64,000 nucleotides of DNA, taken from positions 18,785,342 through 18,849,341 of the forward strand of contig JAUPFP010000001.1 of the NCBI GenBank assembly GCA_036925085.1, given 5' to 3'. The notes beneath the pieces were generated by a model. The model ran no database searches. It had not been told where the DNA came from and worked only from the letters and a program-made list of their open reading frames with translations. Below are positions 1 to 9,849 of the stretch, piece after piece; within the stretch, counting starts at the first letter, position 1; the number at the start of each line of letters is the position of its first letter. This stretch comes from Brachycybe producta (lineage: Eukaryota > Arthropoda > Diplopoda > Playtdesmida > Andrognathidae). The position numbers were made by a program, and so were the translations under genes.

Positions 1-2084
1 TCCCACTTGTGTCCCGCCAACAAGAGGTCTAACGCTCTTTGCATAGTGGCAGGAGCATTGCAGAGTTCGAAAGGCATTCTTCGGAACTCAAAAAGACCTT
101 GAGAGCAAATGAATGCTGTCTTCTCAATGTCTTGCTCCGCCATCCTGACCTGCCAGTAACCACTAGCAAGGTCTAGAGTTGCGAAATACTTCGCTCCAGC
201 AAGTGAATCGAGGGCATCATCGATGCGAGGTAACGGGTACTGATCCGCCTTAGTTTGGGCATTCAGTCGCCGATAGTCCACGCAAAAACGAAAGCCACCA
301 TCCTTCTTGCGAACAAGCAAGATAGGGCTCGCGTAAGGACTATGCGAAGGTTGGATTACCCCTGCATCCAACATCTTCGCTACCTCTTCTCTCTCGATTG
401 CATGAGCCGCCGGAGCGGTTCTTCGCAATCCTTCACGCACAGGAGGTAACCCACCGGTATCAATAGTGTGCTCGACGAGCGGGGTTTCCCCCAGCTCTGT
501 ATAATCGAACGCAAAATGATCACGGCGTTCCAGCAGGAACTCCCGAAGCTGTGCCGCCTCCTCAGGCTTCAGACTAGGTCCAATTTTAAGGCACTCTTCG
601 AGAGTGGGCTTGACTTCCGCATTGAGGATCCGGCGACCTTTCTTCGTTGCCCCTCTCAACTTAGGCGGAAGCCCCCCTGGTCGACCATCTCCATGAGTGG
701 GGTCTCCCCCTCTCAACTTAGATGGATCGTCCAGTCCCACCACTAGGGCTGCCTCCACAGCTTGAGCTGTCGCCACACCCTCCCCTGTTTCCAGGGCAAT
801 GGGTACGTCGGCGACGTTCTCAAGCCAAATGTCGTAAGAGCCTTCCTCTGTGGCTTCGGCAATACCTGCCACTGCCAACAGACCACGGCCACCTAAGGCT
901 TTACGATGGGGCTCAACGAGAAGCAGCTGTCCAGGGCCAGCATGCTCTATCAAGCTCACGGAAACTATCTTCCGCTCATGAGCTGATAACCACACGTTCT
1001 GCAACAGTCGCAGGGAACAAACTTCCCCGCTCCTAATTGGAGAACTGGTCTCGACAAGCGTGGGTGACACAATGTCAACCCACCCATCCACCTTTTCAGG
1101 CTCCACAGGCATACCTTCCGGGAACCCGAAAGGAGGGAGTAGCACCGGCTCCACAGAATCGTGAAGCCTCGCCAACGCCTCCAATACAGAGCTCGGAAGT
1201 TGTACCGAAGTACCCTGCGCAGCCTGAATGGCCAGTGCGGCATGAAGAGCATCTGGATGTGCATTCCAGATGTCTTCCCGGAAATAAACTTTCCGGCTCA
1301 CGACGTCCAACATTAACCCAAACCGGGAAGCCAGGTCAACACCTATTACGGCTTCCCCTTCACCCTCAATGAGGAGAAGATGGGTATGTATGGACCGTCC
1401 GTGGATTGACATGTCCACGTACATGACTCCTTCTATCTGGATGGAGTACCCGCTCATGCCCGTCAGGAATGAGGGGAGGCTAACCTCCTGCACCGGTAAC
1501 TCCATCTCCCGTGCCACCGACATGCTCATTACCGATACTTCAGCACCGGTGTCGACGATCGACTCAACCAGCCGACCATCCATCGACACCAGAACACGCG
1601 GTGCCCCACGCAAGTAAGCACGGCTCTGTAATTCTGGAATGGGCAACCGTCGTTGCCCGACATTACTTCTCTGAGCCTCATCCGGTCGTACTGGGTGCTC
1701 AGGGGCCTGGCTTCCAGTCTCCACTCCAGGAGACCCACCAGGCCTGGGCGACAGCATGGGCGCACCAACGCTCGAAGCCCTCGTAATGCCCGTACCATTC
1801 GGACCTTCCTCCCCCTCATCAGGGAAGAAAGGTGCCACCCAGCTCTCCAGCCGGGCAAGCGCAGCTTCCAGTGTGGGGCTTGGCTCCTGAAATACCCACT
1901 GGGTAATTTCTGGGTCCGCAGACCTAGCCAGAGGCACCCCTGCGTCATGCAGGATACCCACATATCTGGAGACTGCCCGAAGGTACGCTCCTTCTTTACT
2001 TCGCCGGCTTTGCCGGACACCTGAGTTTTCAAGCATTACCGGTCGACTGCAGCTCAGTTCTGCAGGGACCGGCGCCGGTTTAAC
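1..2084 (-). CDS. pol: pol (protease - reverse transcriptase), partial
   Basis: This frame lies -1 to gag and is open from the slip site at 2084 to the window edge. Aspartic protease: the catalytic D-T-G-A-E is at 1553-1539, in the context ESIVDTGAEVSVMS. After a ~270-residue linker comes the RT N-terminus: EEVAKMLDAGVIQPSHSPYA, then VRKKDGGFRFCVDYRRLN near 310-250, then YPLPRIDDALDSL and LASGYWQVRM. The frame is cut before the YxDD motif. I saw no stop in it, unlike the gag of the same copy. The product would be a Gag-Pol fusion made by frameshifting that processes Gag and copies the RNA. Family assignment is certain; activity cannot be judged because RNase H and integrase are outside the window. 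Confidence 0.88.
2039..2084 (-). promoter_or_regulatory. -1 programmed ribosomal frameshift signal (gag/pol)
   Basis: Minus strand: heptamer G TTA AAC (2084-2078), in the correct phase for gag, then a 5-nt spacer (CGGCG), then a stem: CCGGTC pairs with GACCGG and CTGCAG with CTGCAG, with a C/TC internal bulge and the 7-nt loop AACTGAG carrying the gag stop. Shifting -1 gives GTT AAA CCG GCG and reads straight into the protease frame. GTTAAAC is a known slippery heptamer (equine arteritis virus). Heptamer, phase, spacer and stem were all read directly from the sequence. Confidence 0.85.
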
Positions 2085-3861
2085 GAGGGCGGGCCCTCGT
2101 TTCTGGCGACAGGTAGATAGAACATCTGTCCATCAATGACGGTGGACAGATACTCCCGGCCCTGCAGTACCACGGGTGCTAGACCCGGCAGGTACTGCAC
2201 CACTGGGCTTTCGCCCGGTGGTACTCGAGCAACCTGTCCTTGGGCAACTGCCCTCGGACAGTCCTTCCTAAGGTCACCCATCTGGTTACACCGAAAGCAT
2301 GGACCAGGTTGCCTACGAGTAGGACCTCCACCTCCAGCCGTTTGGCTAGAACCTGACGGGGCTGCTGTGGACTTATTTCCACCCTGGCTCTGCCGCTTCG
2401 TCTTTCTTCCCTTCTGCCCTCCGGTCTTGGCGGTAGCTCCGTCCGATTTGGACGGTGCCGCTGCCTTCGCACCCGAAGAGGTAGAGGTAGACGTAGCAGA
2501 GCCCTTGGGCTTTGCCACAGCACCAGAGACCTTGGCCGCAGCCTTGGTCCCTGGTACCGTCAAGGTACGGTCAGGTAACGCTCCCGCCGTAAGCATGTCG
2601 GCCTCGACCAACATTGCCTCGGTGGTAAAGTCCCTGACCGTCTCAGCTTTCGATCCCCAGAGAGGTCTGAGAATCTCCGGCTGCAGTTTCTTCTTGTATC
2701 GGAGGAGTCGACAAGACTCATCCTCACCAGGAGAAACTCGTTCTGCTAGCTCAACAAAGCGCCAGTAGAACGCCTGGAGTGATTCCGCAGGCCCTTGCTT
2801 CATGGCCTCGAAACGGTCAAAACAGGCCTGAGCCTGATTCTTCGTCCCAAAGCGGTGAAGCATAGCCTGCCTCAACTCCGGCCAGGTCAGGTTCGGCTTG
2901 AACTCCACCAAACAGGCGTAATGTTCCTCTGCCGGACCATCGAGCAGGTACGTAAAGAAACTGCACCTGGCCTCATCCGTCCAGCGCTGAGCCCGAGCTT
3001 TGGCTTCGAACTGCCGGAGAAAAGGCGTAATGTCCTCTCGTCCATCATACCGGATGAACGAGTGAACTGGGTTAAAGAACCCAAACGCCTGGATCTCCGA
3101 CGGGACAGCCGGTGCAGGCGTCCACGGCGCGGTACTTACCCGACGTGGTGCCCTGCCCCGGTTCCCCGAAGTCTCAGCATCGGATTCAGCATCCTCGGGT
3201 TCCACCAAGTGGACCCGTGGTCGCTGAACGGGCGGAGGGACTCCCCGACCACCTCCCGTAGGAGCGGTCCGAGTTCCTCCACCGGGAGGCATCCGCCTGG
3301 CCGGAGCCGGCGGCACCTCCCTACCTGCACCTTCCCGGTGCACGGGCGACGGTGTGAACCGAGGAGCCGCCCGATCCCTGGGGAAAGATGACCCTGCCAT
3401 CGCAGTTCATCAATCCCCCTGGCAACCTCACGGAGCTCCTCCTCAGTCATCGACGCCAACCATGACGTCGTGTTCACTGAGGGTGGCCCCGTGGTCCCTA
3501 CCACCTCTCCCGCTAAGGGATTACCTCCCCGTCCAACCGGACGGGAGGCGGTGGAGGTTAACCGGCCGGCCATAGGCCGTACGCCTGTCCCAGTTGGGGT
3601 CGGCGACCCTCCATCACCACCGTCTCCCGGTGCTCCCCCGGAGGCAGTGTCCCGACGGTGCGTCCGCACCGTCACAAAGCCTCCAGCCGGAGGTTGGTCC
3701 GTAGGTTCAACCTCTACGACACCTTCCTCCGTGGAATCACCGGGCGCGTTCCCGCCAACAGCACCCTCAACAGGGTGCCGCCCCTCCGGCCGCCTACCGC
3801 GGCCGATGGTGCGGGAACGCAACTCCAATCCTTCCAACAAACTGCTTCCCCGACCAGACAT
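2054..3861 (-). pseudogene. gag: gag of element A (one frameshift)
   Basis: Structural polyprotein. Start chosen at ATG 3861-3859 (MSGRGSSLLEGLEL), homologous to ATG 52117 in element C. An N-terminal Pro/Gly/Arg-rich region is followed by a Retrotrans_gag capsid (FFNPVHSFIRYDGREDITPF through RFGTKNQAQACFDRF to DESCRLLRYKKKLQPE), a Lys/Ser/Thr-rich linker and a CCHC-like knuckle. Two defects: the frame changes near 3400-3390, after GHLSP, compared with element C; and the knuckle reads C-x2-C-x4-D-x4-C, with Asp where His should bind zinc. The stop TGA (2056-2054) lies inside the loop of a predicted frameshift stem. The frameshift could be an assembly error, but the open pol frame argues that the copy is otherwise young. 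Confidence 0.85.
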
Positions 3862-3959: not shown

Positions 3960-4700
3960 ACGGACAAGAGTCCGCAAAACACCGACAATTAACGGTAGAA
4001 CCGTAAACTACCGCAGTTTCACGGACAAAAGTCCGTGTCCCACGGTCAGATTTACGGTGGAGTTCCTTCTTACCGTTTTCGACCGGTGATATACGGACAA
4101 CCGTCCGTTGTTCGCCGTCTAATCATGGTACAAAGCTCTTTCACCGTCCTAGAACGGAGATACACGGACAACGGTCCGTAATCTACCGTCCACCAACGGT
4201 TAAACTGACTTCTTACCGTGTTCGAACGGTGATTCACGGACAAAAGTCCGTAATCCACCGTCTACTTACGGTAAAACTTGACCGTAACCCGGTTTAACCA
4301 CGGTATCACGGACAAAAGTCCGTGTCCCACGGTATAACACCGGTAAACCTGGCCGCAGACGGGTTTCCGCCGTAGTTCCACGGACAAAAGTCCGTGCCCT
4401 ATGGCGTACTACCTGTCTACCGGACAAGCTACGGTTAAGTTCCCCTTTTCACCGGGTTCTACCGGTTCCGCACGGTAAATCACCGTGCCACCGGTATACT
4501 GACGGTAAAAAGACCGTTATCCCGCGTTCGGACGGTCCTGCACGGTCAACCACCGCGCCCACCATCCTACTTACGGATAACCTAGGGCTTTCCCCGGTGA
4601 CCACCGCGGTATCACGGACAACCGTCCGTGTCCCACGGTCCTTCACCGGACTACTACGCCCTAAGCCGCGATCGGCCGTAGTTCCATGGACAAATGTCCA
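3960..4700 (-). repeat. Leader hairpin array, ~72-nt period (element A)
   Basis: Nine perfect or near-perfect dyads of the form ACGGAC-N4-GTCCGT start at 3960, 4021, 4093, 4164, 4236, 4308, 4380, 4614 and 4687. Spacing is 61, 72, 71, 72, 72 and 72 nt; then comes a gap filled by two variant dyads (GCACGGT...ACCGTGC near 4470 and a degraded one near 4531), and 73 nt between the last two. Between dyads lie further ACCGT/ACGGT words. The array fills the untranslated leader between the PBS and gag. The same order recurs in element C. Confidence 0.9.
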
Positions 4701-4763
4701 CGCCCTACCGGCACCACACGACTCCGGTCTTGCCGACCGCACAAGAGAGGCTGGTGGTAGCGC

Positions 4764-4783: not shown

Positions 4784-5622
4784 TGTAACGACCCGACTTG
4801 GTCGCTACAATACCTACGGCAAATTCGAACCAACTTACCGTCGCTTGACCTCCTTGGGACGGGTCGAAGCGCTGGCCAGCCCTCCTCTTGTACCCGTCCG
4901 TGCCACGGGTAGCGCCGGTTGGAGGTCCTGTCCCTCGCCGCAAGTCGATGGACGAAAGACCGCCGAACAAGACGAGGAACCCACGGTAGATCCCCGATGG
5001 ATCCTACCGCGGAACCGCACGCGAAGCACCGGCCGACACGATGGAAAACACGCCGGACACAGGACGGTGAAGTACCGGTGCACCCCACCGGTAAACCCCC
5101 ACCCTCCTCGCGGTAACTTCCCCACAATGTATTATTAAAGGACACGGACACAGTGGTTAGGGAGTGAAAATAAACAATATATATTTATTCAATGGAATAA
5201 ATGAACAATAAAACACTCACTTATAAATAGGCAATATCTGCTGGTAAATTCTACCAGCAGAGAGCCAAAACAAGAGATGCAAATATATGATAAAAGATGA
5301 AACTCCTGGCTAATCCCAGCCAGGAGAAGAGGTTAACAACCTCCACACTCCAAGGAAACAAAGAGATGAATGGCGGCCATCTTGGCCACCTGTTGAATGA
5401 TGAGAGCTCACACACATCCACCAACATCAAGGGTTTCACTTCCACTGTCCAGTATACAATGGCTGCCACCATTATATACACCCCCAGGCTGCTCCACCTG
5501 GGGGAGGACAGGGACCCTTGCTGGCCATTTTGTCGTCTGCCTGGCACTCAATTTAGCAAGTGCCTAGCAGACGACATGGGATTTAGTTCTGCACCACAAA
5601 GGAGCAGAACTGGGTCGTCACA
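4784..5622 (-). repeat. 5' LTR of element A
   Basis: 839 bp with TG...CA ends; in element sense it begins TGTGACGACCC and ends GGGTCGTTACA. It contains a TATA-type motif (TATATAA, around 5470) and an AATAAA-type region near 5210-5170 in element sense. A consensus 5' splice site GTAAGT is at 4838-4833, about 50 nt before the LTR end, at the same place as in the other LTRs of this lineage. Confidence 0.92.
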
Positions 5623-5838
5623 ATATTTTTCTTTTAACAACTTAAACATGGACCTAGAAATGACTGATATGGTAGCTCCAGTATCGTACAATATGTTTAT
5701 ATTGTAGCCTAAAATACATGCAGAGAATATGGGACATGAGTGGGGTTTTTCCCTAACGTTATTTAACATTTTGCGTGATTTGTAATGTCTTCTCCCTTTT
5801 TGACACGCAGGTTTACCTGAGGGAGTTTTTAGTTTCCC
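5623..5838 (-). pseudogene. Protease (start of pol) of element 2, cut by insertion
   Basis: Read in the -1 frame from the GGGAAAC slip site, the frame is open without a stop through to an aspartic-protease core with the catalytic triad in YDTGATISVISRSMFKLL. It ends abruptly at 5623 where the LTR of element A begins. Codons after that point belong to the LTR. The role would be Gag/Pol maturation. Loss is by insertion, not by decay. Confidence 0.82.
5792..5838 (-). promoter_or_regulatory. -1 programmed ribosomal frameshift signal (gag/PR), element 2
   Basis: Slippery heptamer G GGA AAC (5838-5832) is in gag phase, with the gag stop TAA immediately after it (5831-5829). Six nt downstream CTCCC (5825-5821) can pair with GGGAG (5796-5792), enclosing a small CAGG/CCTG hairpin. 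The -1 reading GGG AAA CTA AAA ACT stays open into the DTGA protease. GGGAAAC is an established slippery sequence (simian D-type retrovirus gag-pro). Confidence 0.83.
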
Positions 5839-6904: not shown

Positions 6905-7369
6905 TTAAGTGGGTCTCATGGGTCGACTACTAATTCTGGCAACGTATTCTCTCTTCTGGGTTTTTGTCATATGACTCAACTCATTAGAGTTCACAAATCT
7001 GAAATATTTTGGGGCTGATCGGGCCTCCTCTTCCAATTTTCTGATTTCATCTTGAGTGTATGTTTCCTCCTCCCAGTTTTCAGAACAAGTGATTAATTGT
7101 AGACTTAAATCATCTATATAGGGAACCTGTTTCTTTTGGACTCCAGACTTCTGTTTGTCTTGAATTTCCTTGTCCCAATCTTCTACAGGGGGTGGGAGAT
7201 TAAATACTGGTTGTAGGTTCCAAGTTGGAAGAGATGAGGAAATGGGGCAGATCTTTGGCAAATTTCTGGGGCTGTATGGGCAGCGCATATAATGTTTATT
7301 GTAACTGGTAGCTTTAATTAGACAGTGACCCTTTTTAAATGGACAAGGAATAAGATAAGGTTCATTCAT
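6905..7369 (-). CDS. GTSF1/Asterix-like CHHC zinc-finger protein encoded by LTR element 2 (154 aa)
   Basis: First ORF after the PBS, intact from ATG 7369 to the stop at 6905. Residues 9-30 form C-x5-H-x10-H-x3-C (CPFKKGH...KHYMRC), the U11-48K/GTSF1 CHHC finger, which in GTSF1 binds RNA including tRNA. A vestige of a second finger follows (C41-P42). Residues 59-68 read PPPVEDWDKE, matching the acidic tryptophan motif of the GTSF1 C-terminal region that contacts PIWI proteins. Further Trp residues lie at 50 and 99 (SENWEEE). The C-terminus is charged (RKLEEEARSAPKYF) and Arg-rich. The finger and W motif are seen directly; GTSF1 relationship is inferred from their order and spacing. It may act on the tRNA primer or the piRNA pathway, or be a leader-encoded gag accessory. 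One residue more than usual lies between the two His. Confidence 0.72.
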   Translation of the reverse strand: MNEPYLIPCPFKKGHCLIKATSYNKHYMRCPYSPRNLPKICPISSSLPTWNLQPVFNLPPPVEDWDKEIQDKQKSGVQKKQVPYIDDLSLQLITCSENWEEETYTQDEIRKLEEEARSAPKYFRFVNSNELSHMTKTQKREYVARISSRPMRPT

Positions 7370-7448: not shown

Positions 7449-7468
7449 GAATCCTGTTCACGACGCCA
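7449..7468 (-). other. Primer-binding site, element 2
   Basis: The plus strand reads GAATCCTGTTCACGACGCCA, which looks exactly like a tRNA T-arm/acceptor 3' end with CCA. The minus strand is therefore a PBS beginning TGGCGTCGTG, three bases inside the LTR edge at 7472. The acceptor sequence resembles tRNA-Ser, but this is not certain. Confidence 0.8.
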
Positions 7469-7471
7469 TTT

Positions 7472-7900
7472 TGTTGGCCGTTCTCTATGTGTAAACTTTA
7501 TTGGTGAGAAAGGCCAACTGATTTTTTAAACTCAGGTTCATCAGATCAATGAAGATCTATAATGAAATTTTTCTGTATATATAAAGTCACTTAATAACAC
7601 ACTACATCAACTTGACTTAAAATTTAAAAAAAATGTTTTATTGTGACAAAATAGGGCTTATAAGTTACATTCAAACAAACTAAGATATAAACTACAAAAA
7701 TTAGATTTTAGCTTAAGTAAAAACAAAAATAAACATATTATGTAACTGAGCTTTAAATACTAAATGCAACCAAGATAAATGGAAGGACCAGAATAGTCAA
7801 ATTAGGGCATAATAAAGGGAAATGAAAGAAACAATTTATGGTAAAAGGGGTATAACCAATAGGGTTGGTTAATTCTTAGGATAGGCCAAATCAGCCTAGA
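7472..7900 (-). repeat. Putative 5' LTR of element 2 (outer end not resolved)
   Basis: The LTR edge TGTTGG (plus strand) sits at 7472 directly outside the PBS. The upstream sequence is AT-rich with no ORF. I could not locate the other terminus, so the end given here is arbitrary; the LTR could extend to around 8.4-8.9 kb. Confidence 0.4.
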
Positions 7901-7934
7901 GCATTTAACAAAAAAAAACAATGTAACAACTTAC

Positions 7935-8071
7935 AGTACAAACAGCCCAACCATCATTGTTGTTCAAGTTTTCCAAGTCTCCCACTGTTAAGCCTAGAAG
8001 ATTTCTAGTTTTTTCTCTAAGGTATTCTTCACACACTGGACCAACAATCACCTTGAATGGTAACTCATTTG
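7935..8071 (-). CDS. Candidate orphan exon, unknown protein
   Basis: A minus-strand block bounded by a good acceptor (TTTTGTCTGACAG before 8071) and a consensus donor (GTAAGT, 7934-7929). It is open in the frame NELPFKVIVGPVCEEYLREK...LTVGDLENLNNNDGWAVCT. I do not recognise the protein. It may be an exon of an unidentified host gene, a captured exon, or chance within a repeat. Confidence 0.28.
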
Positions 8072-9849
8072 CTGTCAGACAAAAGACCAATAATCAGATT
8101 ATGGTAACTTATGTGACCGAAGGCAAAAAAGACCTATCATATAGTGATTTTGTGGTAACCTGTGTGCAAAAAACCATCAGAGTCAAAATTGGTTATAGTC
8201 AACCTTCCACCACAGATGCCTTTAAACTAGAAAAGACCTACAATGCCCAAGTCATGGTAACTGATGTAACTCCATTAAAAAGACCAATAATCAAAGATTA
8301 TGGTAACTATTTTGGTGGAGACAAGAGACGTACTACTTGCAACATTTATGGTAACTTTTTGTTGTCAGGCTGATGGCTTCTAGCATGAGCTGTATACCAA
8401 GCTTATCCAATGTTCTTAGGATCCAAGATTCTCCTGAGAGTGGAATGGGTGCTGATCCACCGATGATTCTGCTTTTTCAGCCAAAATGTTGGCCCTTTTA
8501 TACAAAATCCCTCTCATAGAGAATCATGGAAGTTCTATGATTGGTTGACTGGTTTATCATTAATTCCCTCTTATTTTCATGAATTTTATGCAATTTTTTA
8601 TATCAAAAGTTGACAGTAGGAAATTTATGGTCATGAGAAAATATGTTTAAGTTGGGGTCTTAAATATATTTCCCCATGAGAAGGGGAGGGGTGGAGAACA
8701 TTTCAGATGGGGTTCTACAAGTTCTCATGCCCTCTTGTGACCCTAGCTAGAGGTTTCTTGGGAAAGTTATTATATTTCCATAACTCATATCTTAACTTTT
8801 ATGTTTTCTGACATATACTTGTAATGCCATCTGTTTGAGGCAAATGATGTATGAGTTTTGAAAATAATTATAACTAAGGATACACTATTAGAACAAAATA
8901 TTGGGGGAGTTTATTTTTAGACAGAAAGGAAAGCATAAAAAATATAAAGGCAATAAGCCTAAACACACCTTGATACAATAAAAGGAGCACATGAACAAAT
9001 GATTATGCAATAGTTTAAAATCATATAAAACAACTTGAACATCACAATAAAAAGGCGCCATTTTAAGACACATGTGTACATAAATTAGTAATGTAAAATA
9101 CACTTGAAGTGTGAGGGGAGGGGTTCTGGTTCCTACAGGCTTTTTGGAAAGGGGACACTTATCAGTAGACAAAATAATAAAAAAGGGGGAGGGTGAGGTC
9201 TGGATGTTTAAAAGTTATTGGGCTACAGGAGGTGTAGGCCTAAGTCTCAGATAGGCCTATCTACAGTTGTTTATGATTTGTGGATAAAGTCTGAGTATAG
9301 AAACCAGAGTTTGTTATATTTCTCTTGGTAGGGTTTCTCCAGACTGAGGGGAAGAATTTTAACAGTTAGGTTAAAAAATAAAAAGAGGGGAGTTAAAATG
9401 TTAAAGAAATTCAGGCTGTGTAGGCCTATGTTACAGATAGGCCTATCTAGAATTGTGTCTGGGTTTTTTATAAATAGTCTGAAAGATGAAGGCCAGGACT
9501 TTTTATATTTTCCCTAGTTTGCTGGACTTTTCTGTTTATTGGAAAAGAGGATATAAAACTGCAAACAGGGGTCATATGAAAAAGTTAAAGAAATAATTTT
9601 GAAAGAATGTATAATCAAGTAAATATTACAAAAAAGGTAAAGTTTATTATTCCTTATCTAACATCCCAATAACATAGTAAATATAATAAAATGAATAGTA
9701 ATAATGAAAATAATAATAATGAAAATAATAGTAATGTTAATAATATTATTACTAATGCTAATTGAAGCTAGTGGTAAAGCTTGAAAACAAAAAAAATACG
9801 CATTTTTTCTCTTTAAGTTAGGGTTATGTAGAATGAAAAAATCTTCATT
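8072..9849. other. Non-coding stretch, nothing identified
   Basis: AT-rich sequence with no supported gene. Two loosely similar ~200-bp blocks (around 9210-9330 and 9400-9500) share the phrase TAGGCCTA...AGATAGGCCTATCTA. A short AAT/GAA-rich low-complexity tract lies at 9690-9770. Confidence 0.6.

Follow-up and report, generated by a model that had tools for sequence, protein, structure and literature searches.

The PIWI-interacting RNA (piRNA) pathway and transposons are thought to be locked in an arms race. GTSF1/Asterix binds PIWI proteins through tryptophan, and its stimulation of slicing seems to require RNA binding (PMC9385479); the first of its zinc fingers (ZnF1) contacts transfer RNA (tRNA), and its depletion affects long terminal repeat (LTR) elements disproportionately (PMC9539491). 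In flies, Piwi is reported to work with Gtsf1 and Maelstrom (PMC13269885). Extra open reading frames (ORFs) are already known in LTR elements: those of bdelloid rotifers acquired accessory ORFs, the ORF3s (GDSL esterase, DEDDy exonuclease), for which the authors also considered a role in silencing and report no significant departure from neutrality (PMC5408684). In insects, captured helicase domains of viral origin, added to ORF2 of long interspersed nuclear elements (LINEs), were found in a search for counteraction of silencing (PMC5563155, PMC4686597). Here we analyze a window of 64,000 nt of Brachycybe producta DNA (contig JAUPFP010000001.1, positions 18,785,342-18,849,341, forward-strand numbering), which contains a copy of a Ty3/gypsy LTR element with one additional ORF, ORF1, between the primer-binding site (PBS) and gag. 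Unlike the rotifer ORF3s, ORF1 lies ahead of gag, is under constraint, and is similar to a PIWI cofactor, and it differs in this last respect also from the LINE helicases. We tentatively interpret it as a one-finger GTSF1-like accessory gene acting as a decoy in the PIWI pathway, a reading that appears plausible, if somewhat short of probable.

The following features of the window copy bear on this interpretation.

7369 to 6905, minus strand: ORF1, 154 codons, ATG at 7369, stop codon ending at 6905; putative GTSF1-like accessory gene, the first ORF past the PBS
7280..7345, minus strand: single zinc finger of ORF1, CP-x4-H-x10-H-x3-C, with C9, H15, H26, and C30
7172..7204, minus strand: W motif site 1, ORF1 residues 56-66, FNLPPPVEDWD, like mouse GTSF1 W98...W107 in its aromatic residue at -9 and its Pro at -6
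7064..7081, minus strand: second acidic Trp site, ORF1 residues 97-102, ENWEEE; place of the complete W motif in subfamilies D and E
6923..7000, minus strand: conserved C-terminal region of ORF1, residues 124-149, RF.N..EL..TK.QK, helical in the model
7449-7468, minus strand: PBS, 20 nt equal to the 3' end of tRNA-Ser(cga) plus CCA

An earlier note on this DNA had described the intact 154-codon ORF between PBS and gag, and its coordinates proved right, the strand being minus; the primer site, which it had put about 80 bp upstream, ends 79 nt before the ATG, and the residues that it had pointed out (C9, H15, H26, C30, EDWD at 63-66, and ENWE at 97-100) are all present.

ORF1 is a real gene under purifying selection in five subfamilies. 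It has 45 genomic matches at E<=0.001, several of which are pieces of one copy, and 13 of the 20 matches that span at least 139 of the 154 residues are stop-free. The copies were sorted by identity, without a tree, into subfamilies A (the window copy) to E. In the alignment of seven intact ORFs (A1), the invariant positions include C9, P10, H26, C30, F56, P59, E97, W99, E100, and E102, and, in the C-terminal region, R124, F125, N127, E130, L131, T135, K136, Q138, and K139. Position 15 is filled by His in A and B and by Cys in C, D, and E, both of them zinc ligands, so that the finger takes the form CP-x4-H-x10-H-x3-C in the former and CP-x4-C-x10-H-x3-C in the latter. The ratio of nonsynonymous to synonymous substitution rates (dN/dS) was estimated by the Nei-Gojobori method for 36 pairs from nine ORFs (two partial), 20 of which were undefined (19 saturated, one without synonymous change). 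Fourteen of the 16 defined pairs range from about 0.11 to 0.33, these values being rough, as dS lies between 1.0 and 2.3; the A-B pair gives 0.110 (152 codons) and the D-E pairs 0.157-0.178. Conservation of the ORF with dN/dS below 1 in sister copies, which the earlier note had named as a check, is thus borne out. For gag, 6 of 15 pairs are defined, with values of 0.048-0.078 in the five diverged ones and 0.22 in the close one, so that ORF1 evolves faster than gag yet is constrained. That ORF1 is a chance or decaying frame without function, as stops in 7 of the 20 near-full-length matches and the two exceptional dN/dS values (0.58 and 1.6, from near-identical pairs with 10 and 7 changes) might suggest, is very improbable: it is contradicted by the ratios in the remaining defined pairs and by the zinc ligands, which are invariant in the seven intact ORFs, with His15 exchanged for Cys alone.

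The resemblance to GTSF1 rests on two modules. As in GTSF1/Asterix, an N-terminal CP-x4-[HC]...H-x3-C finger is followed by a region, modeled with low confidence, that holds an aromatic-x2-P-x3-E-[DN]-W-[DE] motif. Searches of 177,635 PDB sequences returned mouse Gtsf1 as the only match both for the A1 profile (E 6e-5) and for the A6 profile, composed of one ORF each from A-C (E 3.8e-6). In hhalign comparison with GTSF1 the probability reached 80.7 at the finger (A1) and 88.8 at the W motif (A6), as against values of 0.7 with GTSF1 and 0.9 with ORF1 for the Cys/His-rich accessory ORFs of sister elements, taken as a control. The GTSF1 hidden Markov model (HMM) gave ORF1-C 24.0 and ORF1-B 18.3 bits, the top of 10,000 shuffles being 16.4. 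The three best PDB chains in Foldseek, all with weak E values, were two of GTSF1 followed by one from the U11 small nuclear ribonucleoprotein; the VIA-align comparison was confined to 22 chains and speaks only for the families among them. The finger pattern and the W motif pattern have a single occurrence each, in ORF1, among 249,332 six-frame residues taken from the window and from 20 loci picked for weak zf-U11-48K matches.

A number of observations weigh against a relationship to GTSF1. Pfam scans of ORF1 and its relatives gave no zf-U11-48K match; the Gtsf1 match is lost with profile A2, that is, once four partial ORFs join A1; and profile A7, built from D-E only, does not find GTSF1, its best match being another protein (E 0.017) and its hhalign value 11.4. 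In the shuffle test the fingers of D and E score highest against U11-48K, and those of A-C against finger 1 sequences. The finger spacing is x10, as opposed to x9 in CHHC fingers (PMC9539491), and all seven aligned ORFs contain a single finger, whereas GTSF1 has two in tandem, as does the host's own GTSF1 (locus L021). By alignment with GTSF1, the finger of A and C pairs with finger 2 and that of B with finger 1, and either GTSF1 finger may be the ancestral one. Further differences from GTSF1/Asterix are the Cys in place of His15 in three subfamilies, the second Trp site in A-C, the C-terminal region, for which no GTSF1 counterpart was found, and the location inside a retroelement. In a fold search the C-terminal region alone, modeled with modest confidence, had no PDB match at E<=10; alignment A5 retrieved only immune-receptor chains from the PDB sequences (E>=0.42); and ORF1 and A2 found nothing at E<=10 among 5.8 billion proteins, a collection whose eukaryote coverage looks thin, since a host GTSF1 query returned only three GTSF1s; with that limit, ORF1 is not known to have a counterpart in another species.

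Because of the Pfam, A2, and A7 results, the single finger, and the x10 spacing, we speak of a GTSF1-like protein and not of a canonical family member. The earlier note's proposal of a captured or mimicked GTSF1 therefore holds in part: the finger and the acidic Trp motif do resemble GTSF1, and the CHHC-family similarity that it had called for is seen with two profiles and missed by the others and by Pfam. Its relic of a second finger at C41-P42 is to be dropped, as D and E have Phe in place of C41 and there are no additional ligands beyond it. The same negative results, together with the spacing, the change of His15 to Cys in C, D, and E, and the many other Cys-rich accessory ORFs evolved by sister elements, would suit a lineage-specific zinc-finger accessory protein of separate origin from GTSF1, the likeness of the short motifs being due to chance. 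Such convergence seems unlikely, however, given that two separate modules match one family in the same order, that no such match is seen for the accessory fingers of sister elements, which serve as an internal control, and that Gtsf1 is the sole PDB match for A1 and A6. The ORF1 product is GTSF1-like and probably derived from GTSF1 by capture.

The pattern [WFY]-x2-P-x3-E-[DN]-W-[DE] is present in all five ORF1 types, at site 1 in A (FNLPPPVEDWD), B (FNLPPPIEDWD), and C (FYIPPPIEDWD), and at site 2 in D (YSFPTLTEDWE) and E (FYMPNSTEDWE). Of five GTSF1 sequences three fit it, a fourth, that of the host, does so if His is allowed at -9, and the silkworm chain lacks it. Shuffling produced the pattern 4-9 times per ORF in 200,000 shuffles, a rate that is optimistic because the pattern was picked after the alignment had been inspected. 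Mouse GTSF1 has W98 and W107 at a distance of nine residues, and its binding to PIWI becomes more than 60-fold weaker when these two and W112 are all mutated (PMC9385479). One complete motif per subfamily at a shifting place is the behavior that a short docking motif may be expected to show.

These observations suggest the following mechanism. A GTSF1 gene or transcript would have been captured by an env-bearing Ty3/gypsy lineage, with the loss of one finger. The ORF1 protein, presumably translated from genomic RNA, on which its frame comes first, would dock on PIWI-piRNA complexes via the W motif; as a one-finger protein could not do the two-finger job of the host factor, it would compete with host GTSF1, and this competition would blunt silencing of the element, ORF1 acting as a dominant-negative GTSF1 via PIWI or its partners. 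Gag would have to be reached past ORF1, with 4-8 intervening ATGs in the four copies counted, by re-initiation, splicing or otherwise. The evidence for PIWI docking would apply equally if ORF1 bound PIWI or nuage proteins in the service of transmission, guiding the RNA or the particles of the element into germ granules or germ plasm, rather than to block silencing. Silkworm Gtsf1L depends on its conserved W99 for binding to Vreteno, and this residue also enhances binding to Ago3 (PMC10711660). This is in line with such targeting, which sequence cannot separate from the decoy model and which we consider distinctly unlikely.

The finger has a net charge of +5 in all five subfamilies, compared with +3 in mouse ZnF1 and +1 in ZnF2, and thus RNA binding may well be kept. 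The two PBS types found in the family, TGGCGCAGTCGACAGG or a close variant in subfamilies B and C (type 1) and TGGCGTCGTGAACAGG or a close variant in A, D, and E (type 2), both match tRNA-Ser. A genomic search with TTCRAATCCTGTYSACKRCG gave 24 matches, 23 fitting type 1 (TGGCGCAGTCGACAGG) and one type 2 (TGGCGTCGTGAACAGG), and all 11 genes examined with ARAGORN are tRNA-Ser. These facts bear on another explanation, touched upon in the earlier note as loading of the tRNA primer, by which ORF1 is an RNA-binding replication helper: its basic finger would sit on tRNA-Ser or leader RNA for primer loading or packaging, and the Trp sites on Gag or pol. Besides the charge and the primer types, the tRNA binding of GTSF1 ZnF1 (PMC9539491) and the 79-nt distance of ORF1 from the PBS agree with it. 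Two sister loci (L081 and L085), however, have the same primer sites and no such ORF, and primer loading is therefore less likely; PBS type does not follow ORF1 subfamily, and the W motif is left unexplained. We regard a role as replication helper as improbable and return to the decoy reading below. The lack of correspondence between the two PBS variants and the subfamilies, as grouped by identity without a tree, is of interest in itself, as primer use would therefore have been switched or swapped by recombination. A tandem array of tRNA-Ser genes, aga and cga partly alternating and mostly in 180-bp steps, is located at G000:C4:1347524-1349695.

The env gene, the subfamilies, and the accessory-ORF cassettes before gag in sister families go beyond the earlier note. 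In other copies of the element the order is LTR, PBS, ORF1, gag, pol, env-like ORF, and a small open frame. Pfam detects RVT_1, RT_RNaseH, Integrase_H2C2, and rve, in this order, in pol of a subfamily-B copy, the aspartyl protease being below the cut-off. The order of reverse transcriptase (RT)-RNaseH before integrase, the LTR pairs, and the tRNA primer site make it a Ty3/gypsy LTR element. Env-like frames of about 890 aa follow pol in several copies, one subfamily-B piece matching Phlebovirus_G2 in Pfam (E 5e-8), and make it an env-bearing (errantivirus-like) member of the group. Phlebovirus-type env is known from nematode Tas/Cer elements. With env-bearing Ty3/gypsy elements the present one shares the LTRs, tRNA PBS, gag, protease-RT-RNaseH-integrase, and env with the Phlebovirus_G2 match; it differs in the extra ORF or ORFs between PBS and gag and in the open frame after env. 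In two subfamily-B copies both ends are listed at 100% identity to one LTR query, 10,429 and 10,916 bases apart, and insertion is therefore recent. The frame after env (L061, 9536-9970; L066, 9628-9945) is lysine-rich and has no Pfam match above the family cut-off. A piece of the subfamily-B LTR has given rise to a long tandem array, mostly in 33-36-bp steps, at G000:C12:765687-768048. The reversed locus L056 has, at 1495-2961, a 489-codon open frame that begins as a degenerate subfamily-D ORF1 and carries on, without a shift of frame, through about 385 more codons of other sequence.

A search with gag, in which 120 of 1113 candidates were scored, gave at least 121 matches, many with 45-58% identity and open frames. 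The region upstream of gag was read for about 1.5 kb at eight loci (L079-L086) and further at two (L087, L088). Four of them (L079, L080, L082, and L086) have cassettes of small ORFs before gag that code for Cys-rich CPx4C...CxxH proteins with one or two fingers; for one such finger ORF the genome yields 57 full or partial matches, of which 55 are stop-free. L079 and L082 also contain a separate W-motif ORF (FYFPNSERDWD or YQLPCTERDWD) with a basic C-terminus, each with seven genomic matches, six and seven of which are stop-free. The sequence P-x2-ERDWDLQ is retained in the W-motif ORFs of three sister loci, the third being the diverged relative L089, where Phe is at -8 and not -9. At L081, with the PBS TGGCGTCGTGAACAGG at 987, there is no ATG-started ORF of at least 46 aa between PBS and gag, and the same holds before gag at L083, which has a near-match PBS; L085, whose PBS TGGCGCAGTCGACAGG is at 502, shows a single Cys-rich frame, lacking an early ATG, and nothing GTSF1-like, and at L084 neither a primer site nor a clear cassette was seen. 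In the protein searches and the sister loci read, the GTSF1-like ORF1 was found only in A-E. An origin of its finger in the CPx4C...CxxH accessory ORFs is unsupported (hhalign 0.9; no more than 2.5 bits for these finger ORFs with the ORF1 HMM).

In its wider form, our proposal is that an env-bearing lineage captured GTSF1, cut it to one finger and a PIWI-docking motif, and uses it to suppress the piRNA pathway in dominant-negative fashion, and that its relatives vary the theme with separate docking-motif ORFs before gag, in the manner of the accessory genes of complex retroviruses; this we offer as a possible but speculative scenario. If true, it would be a transposon-encoded counter-defense against PIWI silencing in an animal, made directly testable by a retroelement with its own version of GTSF1, and it would be relevant to the tRNA binding of GTSF1 and to the particular importance of this factor for LTR elements. 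The variable zinc-finger and W-motif cassettes before gag suggest "complex" accessory-gene retroelements outside the vertebrate retroviruses. Neither a GTSF1-like retroelement gene nor an animal transposon protein acting on PIWI or its cofactors is described in the titles and abstract openings of the literature searched, which misses most subscription journals and all bioRxiv preprints.

The remainder of the window copy and the element inserted into it are as follows.

7471..9570 at least, minus strand: 5' LTR, extending beyond 9570, outer end not reached
6869 to 5829, minus strand: gag ORF, 346 aa, with CCHC zinc knuckles and its ATG in CACCATGG context
5623..5830, minus strand: start of the protease/pol frame, YDTGATISVISRSMFKLLKEKY, YDTGATISVIS, broken by the nested insertion
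4784..5622, minus strand: probable LTR of a second, inserted LTR element, ends read from sequence
2054-3400, minus strand: gag frame of the second element, Retrotrans_gag
3-2036, minus strand: protease-RT frame of the second element, running off the left end of the window

The gag start lies 35 nt past the ORF1 stop. The window copy is interrupted, with ORF1 and gag open, because the second element, in the same orientation, cuts its protease region at 5622/5623. Outside the window, some 24 kb further left along the contig, the segment C1:18768167-18770221 matches the element LTR, with 95% identity to window positions 7471-8470 and 100%, as listed, to 8371-9570, and is probably the 3' LTR of the window copy. 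In the inserted element, five imperfect 105-nt repeats with spacings of 143, 72, 72, and 306 occupy positions 4010-4707, a stretch flanked by its probable LTR and its gag frame.
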